A DNA stretch of 64,000 nt, taken from assembly GCF_904067545.1 (NCBI RefSeq), contig NZ_LR881183.1, positions 1,616,277 to 1,680,276 of the forward strand, written 5' to 3'. This document shows positions 39,535 to 45,574 of this stretch, in pieces. The DNA is from Thermococcus camini. Lineage in GTDB: Archaea; Methanobacteriota_B; Thermococci; Thermococcales; Thermococcaceae. The position numbers and the translations under genes were made by a program. Each line of letters starts with the position of its first letter. The first letter of the stretch is position 1. The notes under the pieces are model-generated. The model was not told where the DNA came from, ran no database searches, and saw only the letters and a program-made list of their open reading frames with translations.

Positions 39535-40854
39535 TCAGCGGAATCTCCTGAGGGCCATCTCTCCAGCCACGCTTATCGGGTCTATCGTCGGGCTTATCGG
39601 AGGGGCGTAGGCGGTCTCAAGGTAAACGACGTCCTCGACGGTTGCCTCTTTCTGTGCTAGGGCGGAGAGCGTCATTATCCTGCCCCACACCCTTTCCCCG
39701 CCGACTATCTGGGCGCCGATGAGCTTTCTATCGGACTTCCTGAAAATCAGCTTGACGGTTATAGGCTTTCCACCGGGGTAGTATTCCGGCTTCGTCGAGC
39801 CTTTAAACTTTCCGACCGCTATTTCTATTCCAGATTTCTTCGCCCTCTCCTCCGTTATTCCGAAGGTGCCTATCTCAAGGCCGAAGAGCTCTGTTATGGC
39901 CGTGTTGAAGACCGGCCTAAAGGAGACGTCTTTACCTGCTATGTGCTCGGCGGCGACCTTCGCCATTCTGACGGCGGAGGTTCCGAGCTGGCTGAGCGTC
40001 CTCTCGCCGGTTACGGCATCTATCACCTCGGCGCAGTCGCCTATCGCATAAATATCTGGATCGCTCGTCTGGAGGTGCTCGTTAACTACTATCCCGCGGT
40101 TCACCTCCAGTCCGGCTTCCTTGGCGAGGTCAACGTTGGCCCTTACGCCGGTGGCGACGAGGACGAGGTCGGCCTCGACTTCCTCGTCGCCTATCTTGAC
40201 GGCCTCGACCGGACTGCCGACTATCTCGCTGACCCCAACGCCGAAGCGGAAGGAAACTCCGTTGGCTTCCATCTCCTTCTGAACGAGCTTGGCGGTATCT
40301 TTGTCAAGCATCGTCGGCATTAATCTGTCCATCAGCTCAACGACCAGAACCTCCATGCCGAGCTTCGCGAAGGCCTCGGCCCCTTCGAGTCCGATTAGAC
40401 CGGCGCCGATTACAACGGCCTTCTTTGGCTTCCTCTCGGTTATATAGGCCTTTATCCTCCGCACGTCGTCGAGGCTCTTGAGCGTAAACACTCCCTCGTT
40501 CTCGATGCCCTTTATCGGGGGGACGAAGGCCTTCGAACCCACAGCCAGAACAAGCTTGTCGTAGGGGATTTCCCCCTTATCCGTGACCACAACTTTCCTC
40601 TCGCGATCTATGGATTTGACCTCCGTTCCGAGCATGAGCTGGATTTTCTGCCTCTCGTAGAACTCGTTCGGGAAGACGATAACGTCCTCGGGCTTCTCGA
40701 TGGTTCCGCTGATGACGTGAGGCAGGGCGCAGGGGGAGTATTGCATCGTTGGTTCCTTTCCGATGACTACTATTTCCGCCTTCCTGTCGAGCTTGCGCAT
40801 GAATAAGGCAAAGTTGCTTCCGGCCGTACCAGAACCGACAACGACAACTTTCAT
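39535..40854 (-). CDS. Pyridine nucleotide-disulfide oxidoreductase (CoA-disulfide reductase/NADH oxidase type)
   Basis: Encodes 439 residues. An FAD-binding N-terminus (VVVVGSGTAGSNFAL) carries a single redox Cys42 in YSPCALPHV, the class III arrangement of CoA-disulfide reductases and NAD(P)H sulfur reductases. A second Rossmann (VVIGAGLIGLEGAEAF), FAD strand YAIGDCAE and a dimerisation domain complete it. Likely reactions: NAD(P)H-dependent reduction of CoA disulfide, polysulfide or O2. The ATG at 40854 is chosen over the extended frame to 40923; GGTGCTC precedes it. A minus-strand TTTTTATAC TATA lies near 40885. Confidence 0.9.
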   Translation of the reverse strand: MKVVVVGSGTAGSNFALFMRKLDRKAEIVVIGKEPTMQYSPCALPHVISGTIEKPEDVIVFPNEFYERQKIQLMLGTEVKSIDRERKVVVTDKGEIPYDKLVLAVGSKAFVPPIKGIENEGVFTLKSLDDVRRIKAYITERKPKKAVVIGAGLIGLEGAEAFAKLGMEVLVVELMDRLMPTMLDKDTAKLVQKEMEANGVSFRFGVGVSEIVGSPVEAVKIGDEEVEADLVLVATGVRANVDLAKEAGLEVNRGIVVNEHLQTSDPDIYAIGDCAEVIDAVTGERTLSQLGTSAVRMAKVAAEHIAGKDVSFRPVFNTAITELFGLEIGTFGITEERAKKSGIEIAVGKFKGSTKPEYYPGGKPITVKLIFRKSDRKLIGAQIVGGERVWGRIMTLSALAQKEATVEDVVYLETAYAPPISPTIDPISVAGEMALRRFR

Positions 40855-40912
40855 GAGCACCACCGGAGGGAGAAGGGCGAAGAGGTATAAAAAGTTGGCC
40901 TTAACCTTAGGT

Positions 40913-41056
40913 TCACAGGCCAAGCTCCTTCTTTAGTTCTTCCCAGTCTTTTCCGCTCTCAAGTGCTTCCCTTTCGAGTGCCTCGATTTCCTCAGGGCTT
41001 TCGCCCTCTTCCTCCTCAATGAGCCTCGCCTTGAGCATGAGGAGGGCTTTTTCCAT
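40913..41056 (-). CDS. Small acidic helical protein (47 residues)
   Basis: An ATG at 41056 with GAGGAGGAAT upstream opens a 47-codon frame ending TGA at 40913. The product (MEKALLMLKARLIEEEEG start, KDWEELKKELGL end) is one long charged amphipathic helix, with codon use like its neighbours. It starts 14 bases after the stop of the channel gene, so it is probably in the same transcript. It resembles small regulatory or antitoxin-like proteins, but no family was recognised. Confidence 0.55.
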   Translation of the reverse strand: MEKALLMLKARLIEEEEGESPEEIEALEREALESGKDWEELKKELGL

Positions 41057-41069
41057 TCGCCATTCCTCC

Positions 41070-43286
41070 TCAGCGCATCCACTTCCTCGCTATCACAGCG
41101 ACGATGAGCGCCATGAAGACGGCTCCAGTTAGGGCTTCGATTGCACTCAAGGCTTTGAGCCAGCCCGTTGGGTGCATATCGCCGTAGCCAAGGGTGGTGA
41201 AGGTGACCATGCTATAATACAGAACGTTGAAAATACCCTCAATTCCGGACATTCCAATTGGAGTACACACTGAGTCCGCAGTGGAAATACATATTGAACC
41301 TTTGGGATTTAGAGTAGTACCAAGGGCGAATATAGTCCACAAAATACCAAAGATCCCGGTTGAGTGTATAGCCAATTTGACTTTGGCTTTTGTTTTAAGT
41401 TCTATATCGAAGAATTGGGAGGTAAACGCTCCAATCAAGCTGGAAATTACTGCTAGAGTAAGTATAAAACCGAGGTTTATTCCAAACGCGGAATACTGGC
41501 TGAAGATATAGACAATAGGGAACAACAGGAGGGGAATTCCCAATCCTGTGTACAAAAGCCTCGCCCAACCAGTACCATAGTTTGAAAATAAGTCTCCCAT
41601 CAGCCACTCTAGGAAATTGTATAGCATCGCTCTAAAAACAGGCCATTTTTTTCCACTACTAAGAGCATCTATCGCATCTATCATTCGTATTTTTCTCCGA
41701 GCACGCATTTCTGCAACAAACATTTGATCAGCTTCCTCTCGCTTTCCTTCATTTTCAAAGCTTAAACGTTGAACTCTTGCGGCTTCTTGGAGAGCGTATG
41801 CGTAACTTGGTGAACTAGAATCAAATAGCTCCTCCAACTGACTTTCAATCTCCCTAACGGCATTTTCTGTGTTAGATGCTGGTAGTATTACAAAGCTAAC
41901 TCCTTGCCGAAAATCGCAATTTGAAAGTTCGAGTTTTCCATGGAACTTGGGTTTAGGTTCCTTGGAGGTGTCTTTCTCCACAAAAATTAGGCGTTTTTCG
42001 AAAGTTGATCCGTTGAAGATAGCATCTCCTTCAAATTTTGCTGATTGAAATTCCACTGTTTTTTTGAATTCGACATCCTCAAAGTGAACATTGCCATGGA
42101 ACTCGGCATTCTTAAAGCTCGCTCCCTTCTCAAATGTGGCGAAGTTAAAGGTTACTTTTTCCTTGAAACTAGCAAAGTCAAAGGTAGCTGTATCTTTAAA
42201 TACAGAGTGCTCAAAAAAGGCAGGGTTATAAAATTCAGCCTGATCAAATTGTGCACTTCCCAAAAATTCTGAATTGACGTAATTGATAGTGGAATCTCCA
42301 TGTAATTTAGCTTTTGTAAACGCAACCCTCTTGCCGAAATGAGCATTATAAAAATTAATTCCTCCCCTAAACTCAACATTAGTAAAAGATACTTCATCAC
42401 TAAATCGGGCTCCTTCAAACGAGCAATATTTCTTAAAACTAGCATTTTCGGGAGTGGACGACCACTCTGGAAACCATGCAAAATATGTCCTTTTCTTAAA
42501 AGTTGAATAGTTAAATACCGTCTTTCCTTCAAACACTACGTTTAAAAAATCTGTTTCACTTTCAAATGTTACTTGTATAAATTCAACATCATTCTCAAAT
42601 CGGGCATTTTTAAAATCTGCAAATCCTCTAAAAGTTGAGTAACTAAACTTAGTCTGGCCTTTAAATACTGCCTTTCTAAAGGTCTTTTCAATGTCTCCCC
42701 CCAAAGTCATTTCGTATTCGACTTCATGCGGATGTATAAATGGTGGGCCATGATTATCATTTTGAATATCCTTGCGAATGTCCCTAAGACCTAAGAAGAT
42801 TCTTTCAACGTCTTCATTTTGGTACTTTGGAATGATCCACTCCGAACCAGAGGTAAAGTCGAATTTAACATGTTTAAAATTCGCATCTTTTTCAAAAGTT
42901 GCACCGAAAAAAAGTGTGTATTTCTTAAAAACAGCACCCTCAAAACTAACATTATCACGGAATTTTACTTTATAAAAGTCTGATTCTCCTGAAAACTCAC
43001 ACCTATTAAAGCCGAATATTACCGGCCCCTTCATTCCCTGACCTCTCCCATCGAACTCCGCCATACAAAAACTGACATTTTTAAACTTTGCTTCAAAGAA
43101 ACTATATCTTTTTTCAAAATGTGCCTTATCAAAGTACACATCTCCCTCAAAGTGAGAGTAGGAGAAGAATACATCACCCCTAAACTTCGCATATGCAAAG
43201 ATAACATCTTTTTTGAAAGTAGAATTTATAAAGAGCACATCACCCTTAAAGATTGCCTCTTTGAAGTTCACTTTGTCCAAGAACAC
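41070..43286 (-). CDS. Pentapeptide-like repeat protein with C-terminal K+-channel pore (main part of a frameshifted gene)
   Basis: Encodes 738 residues. About 20 tandem repeats of roughly 20 residues with an F-x-G/K-D/A-x-F pattern (FKGDVLFINSTF, FRGDVFFSYSHF) span residues 1-460: a pentapeptide-type beta-helix. A helical segment follows, then membrane helices and a pore loop with the K+ filter VTFTTLGYGDMHPTG and a final helix (about 690-738). A channel gated or tethered by a beta-helix is inferred. The ATG at 43286 is weak; the upstream gene (43268-43570) continues into it if one G is added in the G5 run at 43301-43305 (CCCCC on the plus strand). The region is clearly AT-richer than its surroundings, suggesting transfer. 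Confidence 0.8.
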   Translation of the reverse strand: MFLDKVNFKEAIFKGDVLFINSTFKKDVIFAYAKFRGDVFFSYSHFEGDVYFDKAHFEKRYSFFEAKFKNVSFCMAEFDGRGQGMKGPVIFGFNRCEFSGESDFYKVKFRDNVSFEGAVFKKYTLFFGATFEKDANFKHVKFDFTSGSEWIIPKYQNEDVERIFLGLRDIRKDIQNDNHGPPFIHPHEVEYEMTLGGDIEKTFRKAVFKGQTKFSYSTFRGFADFKNARFENDVEFIQVTFESETDFLNVVFEGKTVFNYSTFKKRTYFAWFPEWSSTPENASFKKYCSFEGARFSDEVSFTNVEFRGGINFYNAHFGKRVAFTKAKLHGDSTINYVNSEFLGSAQFDQAEFYNPAFFEHSVFKDTATFDFASFKEKVTFNFATFEKGASFKNAEFHGNVHFEDVEFKKTVEFQSAKFEGDAIFNGSTFEKRLIFVEKDTSKEPKPKFHGKLELSNCDFRQGVSFVILPASNTENAVREIESQLEELFDSSSPSYAYALQEAARVQRLSFENEGKREEADQMFVAEMRARRKIRMIDAIDALSSGKKWPVFRAMLYNFLEWLMGDLFSNYGTGWARLLYTGLGIPLLLFPIVYIFSQYSAFGINLGFILTLAVISSLIGAFTSQFFDIELKTKAKVKLAIHSTGIFGILWTIFALGTTLNPKGSICISTADSVCTPIGMSGIEGIFNVLYYSMVTFTTLGYGDMHPTGWLKALSAIEALTGAVFMALIVAVIARKWMR

Positions 43287-43570
43287 AATTTCCTCAATAT
43301 CCCCCTAACCAACAAAAACAAAAATAGAGGGAACGGAGGGTCTATTCTCGGAAACACATACCCCCTCGCATCAATAGGCTCCTTAAAAACCAGCCTCTTT
43401 TTCTTCTCTCCATCAACCTCGATCTCCTCAATCTTTGGCTTGAACCTCTTCAAGAACTTTCTGTAGAATTCAATGACCTCTTCCTCGGTCTTGTCCGGCT
43501 TGTGAAAAATACAGTACTCCTGGTCAGCTGTCTCGGGGTCGCAGTTCCCGAAGTGCGCCATCCTGCACAT
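43268..43570 (-). CDS. N-terminal zinc-finger part of the frameshifted channel gene
   Basis: Encodes 100 residues. A Cys-rich finger (MCRMAHFGNC, then EYCIFH: three Cys and one His) is followed by a helical linker. The last nine codons (LRKLCSWTK) look out of frame. Restoring one base before them continues RGDIEEIVFLDKVNFKEA, directly into the repeat protein, so both reading frames are probably one gene of about 830 residues. A minus-strand CTTTTATTG promoter element lies just upstream (43593-43602). Zinc-finger heads of this kind occur on archaeal pentapeptide proteins. Confidence 0.6.
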   Translation of the reverse strand: MCRMAHFGNCDPETADQEYCIFHKPDKTEEEVIEFYRKFLKRFKPKIEEIEVDGEKKKRLVFKEPIDARGYVFPRIDPPFPLFLFLLVRGILRKLCSWTK

Positions 43571-43649
43571 GGTTGCATGTTACGTGGCTTAGCAATAAAA
43601 GCATTTTGGTCATCATATGGAAGTACAATCAACATTGAAATAAAAATGT

Positions 43650-44357
<708 letters not shown>

Positions 44358-44407
44358 TTATAACCTTTTTCTTGCCGTGGGGATGTCGAAAGAATAGGAG
44401 AAGGGAC

Positions 44408-45574
44408 TCAACCTATCTGGAACGCCGAACTCCTCAGCTCGCCGCGCTCGAACCTGTACGGGTCGTACCACTCCCAGTCAAGCGGAACCTTGGAACGGCC
44501 TTTCGATATCAGCCCGGCCATCGCCTCCCCAACGGCCGGCGCCATCATGAAACCGTGGCCGCTGAAGCCTGCGGCAATGTAAAAGTTGTCGAGGAGCCTT
44601 CCGATGGCGGGATTGCTGTCCGGCGTCTTTGCGTAGAAGCCCGCCCACTGGCGGACAACGTGAGCGTAGCGGAGCGGCGGGGCGATTCTGACGGCATACT
44701 CCAGAACGCCGCGCAGGAAGTCGTAGGTCGGCTCGTAGTCGTCTAAGCCTTTAGCCTTGTGCTCTATCCCGGCACCGCAGATTATTCCGCCGTCCTCCCC
44801 ATCCTGGATTATGTAGGCGTCGTTCCAGCTCGGCGGGCACACCAACGGTTCGGCCTGGCCGGGTTCGAGCGGTTCGGTCTTGACGAGCTGGTGCTTGTAG
44901 GCCGTGATGGGTATGAGGTCTCTGCTGAGGCCGGCCATCTCGTTGATGAGGGGCGCCCATGCGTTGGCCGCGTTCAGAACGGCATCTACCCTAACGCTCC
45001 CGACCTTCCCGTTGCTCCTGAACCTCACGGCGGTTATGGCATCTCCCTCCCGCTCGAAGCCTATAACCTCCGTGTGCTCGCGCGCATCAACGCCGAGCTC
45101 CCTAGCACGGAATAGATAGGCAAAGAGCGTCTTGAAGGGGTTCGCCTTGCCGTCCTCCGGGTTCCATGCGCCGGCAAGGAAGGGCTCGGTGTTAAGGATG
45201 GGCACTATCTCCTTCGCCTCGTCCATGCCGATGAGCCTGGCCGGAACGCCGAATCTGTTCTGGAGCCTTATGTTGGCCTTAAACGCCTCAACCTCCTCCT
45301 CGCTCGTGGCAAGGAAAAGGTAACCGGTCTGCCTGAAGCTTATATCAAAGCCGAGCTCTTCCTCAAGCTTTTCCCAGCGCTCAACGGAGTACTTCATGAG
45401 CCTGATGTTGGCCTCGTCCGTGAACTGCGCCCTTATTCCTGTGGCACAGCGGAAGGTCGAGCCGGAGCCGAAGTAGTTCTTCTCGAAGAGGATTACCTCT
45501 TCCCCGAGCTTGGCCAGCTCGTAGGCAGTTGCGACGCCTATTATTCCGCCGCCGATAATCGCTATCTTACTCAT
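44408..45574 (-). CDS. Dye-linked L-proline dehydrogenase PDH2-type, beta (catalytic) subunit
   Basis: Encodes 388 residues of the DAO-type FAD family: IAIIGGGIIGVATAYELAK at the N-terminus, GSGSTFRCATGIRAQF, and GFSGHGFMMAPAVG near the end. It is a close paralogue of the PDH1 beta subunit (26217). It is the last gene of a four-gene cluster of the heterotetrameric PDH2 layout; oxidation of proline is the expected reaction, though other amino acids (for example hydroxyproline) are possible. The ATG at 45574 lies inside the preceding gene's 3' end and has GGTGGTGGCG upstream. Confidence 0.85.
   Translation of the reverse strand: MSKIAIIGGGIIGVATAYELAKLGEEVILFEKNYFGSGSTFRCATGIRAQFTDEANIRLMKYSVERWEKLEEELGFDISFRQTGYLFLATSEEEVEAFKANIRLQNRFGVPARLIGMDEAKEIVPILNTEPFLAGAWNPEDGKANPFKTLFAYLFRARELGVDAREHTEVIGFEREGDAITAVRFRSNGKVGSVRVDAVLNAANAWAPLINEMAGLSRDLIPITAYKHQLVKTEPLEPGQAEPLVCPPSWNDAYIIQDGEDGGIICGAGIEHKAKGLDDYEPTYDFLRGVLEYAVRIAPPLRYAHVVRQWAGFYAKTPDSNPAIGRLLDNFYIAAGFSGHGFMMAPAVGEAMAGLISKGRSKVPLDWEWYDPYRFERGELRSSAFQIG

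Follow-up and report, generated by a model that had tools for sequence, protein, structure and literature searches.

The channel gene and its neighbours in the window

The window, a 64,000-nucleotide stretch of the 2.02 Mb, single-contig genome of Thermococcus camini (genome G000; hereafter G numbers denote genomes and L numbers loci), carries on its reverse strand a gene with a Cys3His head, a long beta-helix, a charged linker and the pore of a K+ channel, lying between an AA_kinase-family gene and a reductase-like gene (Table 1). In the body ORF, Pfam recognizes Pentapeptide_3 (PF13576) in nine stretches (E 5e-59, 196.7 bits against a gathering score of 27) and Ion_trans_2 (PF07885) with a TxGYG filter (E 1e-11, 44.9 bits against a gathering score of 22.5). 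The head ORF has no credible domain in Pfam; a match to FtsQ_DivIB_C (E 0.0014) lies under the gathering score and was set aside as chance. The Cys3His head itself, proposed in the original prediction from the window sequence, is borne out by its conservation in intact relatives.

Table 1. Positions in the window of the channel gene, its parts and the bordering genes
Feature	Position	Strand	Basis or remark
Left border, AA_kinase-family gene (UMP-kinase-like)	43650..44339	-	Pfam, relatives
Head ORF, Cys3His head and helical/FxFP segment, 100 aa	43268..43570	-	ORF list, relatives
Cys3His residues C2, C10, C20, H23 (C-x7-C-x9-C-x2-H)	43502..43567	-	Invariant in the 7 intact relatives aligned
G5 run, reading-frame break at or near it, head vs body	43301..43305	-	One frame in relatives
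Body ORF, beta-helix and channel, 738 aa	41070..43286	-	Earliest possible start is GTG
Repeat region, beta-helix of 5+6-residue (11) period	41922..43286	-	Pfam, F-F lag, model, allele comparison
Charged helical linker (AARVQRLSFENEGKREEADQMFVAEMRARRK...)	41652..41870	-	Kept in all alleles; helices in model
Membrane region preceding pore	41247..41645	-	Allele comparison, low-confidence model
Pore helix, selectivity filter and last helix	41073..41243	-	GC3 0.67 (host-like codon use); near-invariant across genus
Selectivity filter TTLGYGD	41178..41198	-	Pfam domain, allele alignment
Antitoxin remnant, 47 aa (RelB-like, residues 23-69 of 69)	40913..41056	-	Relatives
Right border, CoA-disulfide-reductase/NADH-oxidase-like gene	39535..40923	-	Likely start near 40851

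The body had been described as about 20 pentapeptide-type repeats. The repetition is indeed far beyond chance, with 54 F-F pairs at a lag of 11 compared with a maximum of 23 among 2000 shuffles, but the phenylalanines are spaced alternately by 5 and 6 residues. The repeat is therefore a pair of 11 residues (5+6), not a plain pentapeptide, and the number of units clearly exceeds 20. The F-rich repeats are shared with Pentapeptide_3 proteins, from which the body differs by its 5+6-residue period and by being joined to a membrane channel. In the AlphaFold model of the body (a monomer, as are all of our models), a regular beta-helix of 11-residue period (pLDDT mostly 75–97 over residues 211–430) is followed by helices and by a membrane part of low confidence.

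No aligned allele departs from the TTLGYGD filter, which argues against a family lacking it, and channel activity is to be expected from it. The pore helix, the TxGYGD filter and the last helix are those of the two-helix K+ channels (Ion_trans_2; KcsA/NaK/Kir-type pores), whereas the putative sensor is here an N-terminal beta-helix. The pore with TTLGYGDMHP originally described as two-helix is therefore well founded as a pore, while extra membrane helices probably precede it in the window allele, as judged from the low-confidence model and from length, the region ahead of the pore having 140 residues compared with 61–87 in most alleles.

The gene is split in the window copy. The head and body ORFs, which share 19 nt, are not in the same frame; the body is preceded in its own frame by a TAG stop; and only about the first 77 residues of the head ORF align with relatives, the remainder being an out-of-frame reading. 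The one-base break lies at or near the G5 run, and the slip can be placed in the stretch from the last conserved head residues to this run. Among the relatives read at the same locus, head, repeats and channel form a single frame in 16 intact alleles of 360–889 aa, a count that takes in G079 (505 aa) and G114 (831 aa), so that near the G5 run the window copy has either a genuine break or a sequencing error. Frame breaks also occur elsewhere, at other positions (G026, G019, G028, G029, G087, G091 and G093; G028 is counted as a long, multiply broken gene and not as a remnant). Because the breaks differ in place and the frame is single in 16 relatives, we dropped the reading in which head and body are separate genes by design; the intact relatives equally speak against a misannotated fusion of separate genes. 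The single gene of the original prediction is therefore found in the relatives, but in the window its parts stand in different frames. The best explanation is that the window copy is a decaying, frame-broken allele, with a sequencing error as the alternative. Its body could be translated alone from the GTG start, which has a GAGG 5 bases upstream.

Exchange of the middle of the gene

We compared the parts of the gene and its neighbours at the protein level over 28 genome pairs. Mean identities are high for the neighbouring kinase (95%) and the pore end (91%), intermediate for the head (73%) and the linker (67%), and lowest for the membrane part (41%) and for the repeats (33%), which vary from 222 to 578 aa. 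A paralogue located elsewhere (paralogue A, see below) has a mean identity of 80% in the genomes where it was read. Between G033 and G035, for instance, identity reaches 98% (kinase) and 97% (paralogue A), compared with 27% for the repeats. The distances between pore ends track those between kinases (Mantel rho 0.48, p 0.01); those of the head, the membrane part and the repeats do not (Mantel p 0.19 to 0.80).

Two pairs of genomes delimit what is exchanged. G079 and G078 are mostly 94–99% identical across the kinase, RHH and PIN genes and into the head, cannot be aligned in the repeats, and beyond them are about 80–85% identical, with values from 77 to 91% over the tail and the start of the right flank. 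G098 and G101 are 98–100% identical over the head, repeats, linker and membrane part, with 80–95% upstream and 94% in the tail, and their dS is about 0.01–0.06 over the exchanged parts (0.014 in the repeats) compared with 0.29 in the tail. From these steps in identity, the exchanged unit consists of the head, the beta-helix and the first membrane part, with the pore end as its anchor. At the level of the sequences, the allele comparisons thus demonstrate that this stretch passes by recombination from one species to another, whereas the pore end remains in place.

The AT-rich composition of the gene had been read as the mark of a recent arrival. Its G+C is indeed low (35–46% compared with about 56%), but in all eight alleles tested GC3 is mostly 0.28–0.38 in the middle and 0.67–0.81 in the tail, host genes being at about 0.71, so that the exchanged middle is AT-rich as a rule and its composition does not mark a newcomer. 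Recent arrival of the whole gene therefore gives way to an exchange of its middle, at a locus that is resident together with the pore end and its host-like GC3. As regards a viral donor pool, no relative was found in IMG/VR contigs, and a phage collection gave a single match, pentapeptide-only, with the Aeromonas protein as query. The wholesale swapping of the beta-helix among close species suggests a fast-evolving sensor, as in anti-virus defence.

A separate observation concerns the head. The allele of G090 (L097:3395-5080) has an open frame in which the head Cys residues are lost, so that the Cys3His part may be dispensable.

A hot spot in Thermococcus and relatives elsewhere

In the Thermococcus loci examined, the kinase/reductase pair flanks the channel gene, and across genomes the locus is found intact, broken, reduced to a remnant or empty. 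The channel gene is missing from it in 15 of the 43 resolved genomes: the interval is empty (65–162 nt) in 12 and holds toxin–antitoxin genes or remnants only in the other three. The other contents of the interval are an RHH and PIN module, a gene for a 69-aa RelB-like antitoxin overlapping that for an 88-aa ParE-family toxin (ParE_toxin, Pfam E 3.5e-8 in relatives) and, as we infer from sequence, a HEPN-like gene. Channel and toxin–antitoxin genes tend to occur together at the site (20/8 compared with 3/12; Fisher p 0.003, with shared ancestry ignored). The small charged protein that had been assigned to the same transcript as the channel belongs to this set: it is the C-terminal 47 residues of the antitoxin, 100% identical to that of G035. 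No ParE/RelE-type toxin gene lies beside it in the window; the pair is complete in relatives.

In remnants, the part of the channel gene that almost always survives is its 3′ end (G024, G020, G027, G023, G031, G103 and G113), which is partly a matter of ascertainment, since the tail is the most recognizable part; the retained end is possibly a recombination anchor. In the decayed loci L044, L045, L046, L052 and L110, the last 14–44 channel codons are almost unchanged. An RNA gene as the cause of this conserved 3′ end found no support in an Rfam search of positions 40500–44500, which gave nothing near any gathering score. In a second genus of the family (G098, G100, G101 and G103), the gene occupies a different fixed site, adjoining an ABC transporter, with differing alleles or a remnant.

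The architecture had been considered unusual, which holds in part: the layout of head, repeats, charged linker and channel recurs in two further Thermococcus families (paralogues A and B), in Aeromonas caviae (L091), in haloarchaeal plasmids (L089, L090 and L092) and in class relatives, some of them with a degenerate filter. Paralogues A (481 aa) and B (374 aa) both share with the window gene the Cys3His head, a beta-helix or pentapeptides, the linker and the channel, and both lie away from the hot spot; unlike the window gene, the first is conserved at a fixed metabolic locus and the second follows a Ser/Thr protein kinase gene. Paralogue A (L063:2711-4156), nearly ubiquitous in Thermococcaceae, is found between radical-SAM-like and ATP-NAD-kinase-like genes. 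Paralogue B (L077:846-1970, L078:1130-2254, L079:491-1603 and L080:725-1864) combines classical A(D/N)LxX pentapeptides with the channel, and its position beside a protein-kinase-like gene makes a regulated channel possible. In two class relatives the K+ filter is lost (L081:1227-2609, TTFSHLAQPT; L082:538-2337, TSFSTLGAKY), and another selectivity or role of the pore is therefore possible. The Aeromonas record (NZ_AP026896.1), labelled as a plasmid, is 4.9 Mb long and hence chromosome-sized.

A survey of the neighbours of homologues for defence genes, as had been proposed, gave a divided answer. On a plasmid of Haladaptatus sp. QDMS2, a pentapeptide-channel gene (L120:4996-6999) overlaps drmC, which belongs to a drmA-B-C run, by 4 nt (PADLOC: DrmB E 1.7e-158, DrmC E 7e-54; drmA by annotation). 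It shares with the window gene the pentapeptides, linker and C-terminal channel, but has a different N-terminus, the filter TGLGYGQ and a place within the drm operon; it is possibly an extra DISARM effector. The homologue of H. salinisoli has as neighbours genes for a ThsB-like TIR protein, for PDC-M50A and for a DNA methyltransferase. By annotation, the remaining haloarchaeal plasmid loci examined have no defence genes, and most homologues adjoin ordinary genes; a Nostoc copy adjoins recombinases.

Resemblance to HalA and a proposed function

Among 350,542 PDB chains searched with Foldseek, HalA with oligodeoxyadenylate (9nyi) ranks first both for the model of an orthologue (E 6.8e-3, probability 0.98) and for that of the window body (E 1.1e-3, next match 0.55; probability 0.98). 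The E values are borderline, the membrane parts are of low confidence and the TM-scores are low (0.13–0.25), so that these matches do not establish the domain arrangement. HalA, the effector of the Hailong system, is built, as the Thermococcus protein appears to be, of an N-terminal soluble domain and a C-terminal K+-type channel, whereas the beta-helix of the Thermococcus protein, which follows a Cys3His head, is exchangeable and much longer. The DNA-binding part of HalA reportedly forms a crown above the pore. Oligodeoxyadenylate is described as a negative regulator of immune activation (PMC12265719).

With the HalA sequence model (NCBIfam NF051894, curated cut-off 250 bits), nothing in 41 genomes scored over the cut-off, and the window genome gave nothing at E 0.01. 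Matches under the cut-off were obtained with a haloarchaeal member, over positions 61–337 of 338, that is repeats and channel (E 2.4e-10), and weakly with intact relatives (G003, E 1.2e-4; G011, E 5.4e-4), the Aeromonas protein and Thermococcus paralogue B; most members of the clade of the window gene matched weakly if at all. The nucleotidyltransferase partner HalB was not found over its cut-off in 37 genomes, which gave short motif matches only, and neither it nor any other obvious partner lies beside the gene at the locus, where the neighbours are the kinase and the reductase. The gene is probably HalA-like in its layout; on the two features tested, partner and score, it is not a member of the Hailong system. 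Nor was it assigned to a known defence family: no model of PADLOC-DB 2.0.0 matches the channel protein.

The architecture and the recombination are, in terms of sequence, demonstrated. As to function, we propose, with a probability of roughly one half, that the protein is a membrane channel effector with a hypervariable sensor, belonging to a conflict locus that is most likely anti-virus or anti-plasmid. Four subunits would assemble a closed channel, with the beta-helices as a cytoplasmic crown holding it shut. This crown would sense a cue of infection, either a ligand or, as in HalA, the loss of one; once triggered, ion flow would depolarize the cell and growth would stop. The sensor would be under pressure to change and would be renewed by homologous recombination with the conserved ends as anchors, while alleles losing their use would decay. 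The effector or defence-type channel of the original prediction thereby gains indirect support from the HalA fold match, the co-location with toxin–antitoxin genes and the two haloarchaeal homologues beside defence genes, although frequent replacement at a locus does not by itself prove a role in defence. More tentatively, the family could be an archaeal immune-type system in which a conserved K+ pore at a fixed locus is combined with interchangeable, recombining beta-helix sensors, many alleles of which would circulate in Thermococcaceae, comparable to allele-swapping recognition genes and with HalA as a distant single-ligand relative.

To our knowledge, the layout of pentapeptide beta-helix and K+ channel is widespread and functionally unstudied, and the defences of hyperthermophilic archaea other than CRISPR and toxin–antitoxin modules have received little study. 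If our proposal is true, this layout would be tied to a demonstrated anti-phage channel, HalA, and the alleles would represent a natural set of sensors on a constant pore.

It is possible, though rather unlikely, that the protein is a K+ or osmotic-stress channel of the ordinary kind, in which the beta-helix serves to sense a metabolite and variability follows from niche adaptation and not from conflict. The canonical filter and the Ion_trans_2 match would fit, as would paralogue A, which shares the layout and whose conservation across the family is that of a housekeeping channel, and the presence of some haloarchaeal homologues near ion-transport genes. However, such a channel would hardly be absent from the locus in so many genomes and broken or reduced to a remnant in many others, carry unrelated sensors in close species, or share a hot spot with toxin–antitoxin modules. 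A role in antagonism between strains, or as a selfish module akin to an addiction system, in place of anti-virus defence seems to us distinctly improbable: allele swapping, the two co-located toxin–antitoxin systems and frequent decay are consistent with it, but no immunity partner travels with the gene, several intact alleles (those of G004, G012, G033 and G082) stand alone between the flanking genes, and no sign of secretion was noticed. Least probable is relaxed constraint, in which only the pore would matter and the repeats would diverge fast by neutral drift, since, despite the frequency of broken and remnant alleles, the identity steps are sharp in both directions and hence indicate recombination and not drift, the repeat anchors are retained, and dN/dS is about 0.1, from few changes, in one recent pair.
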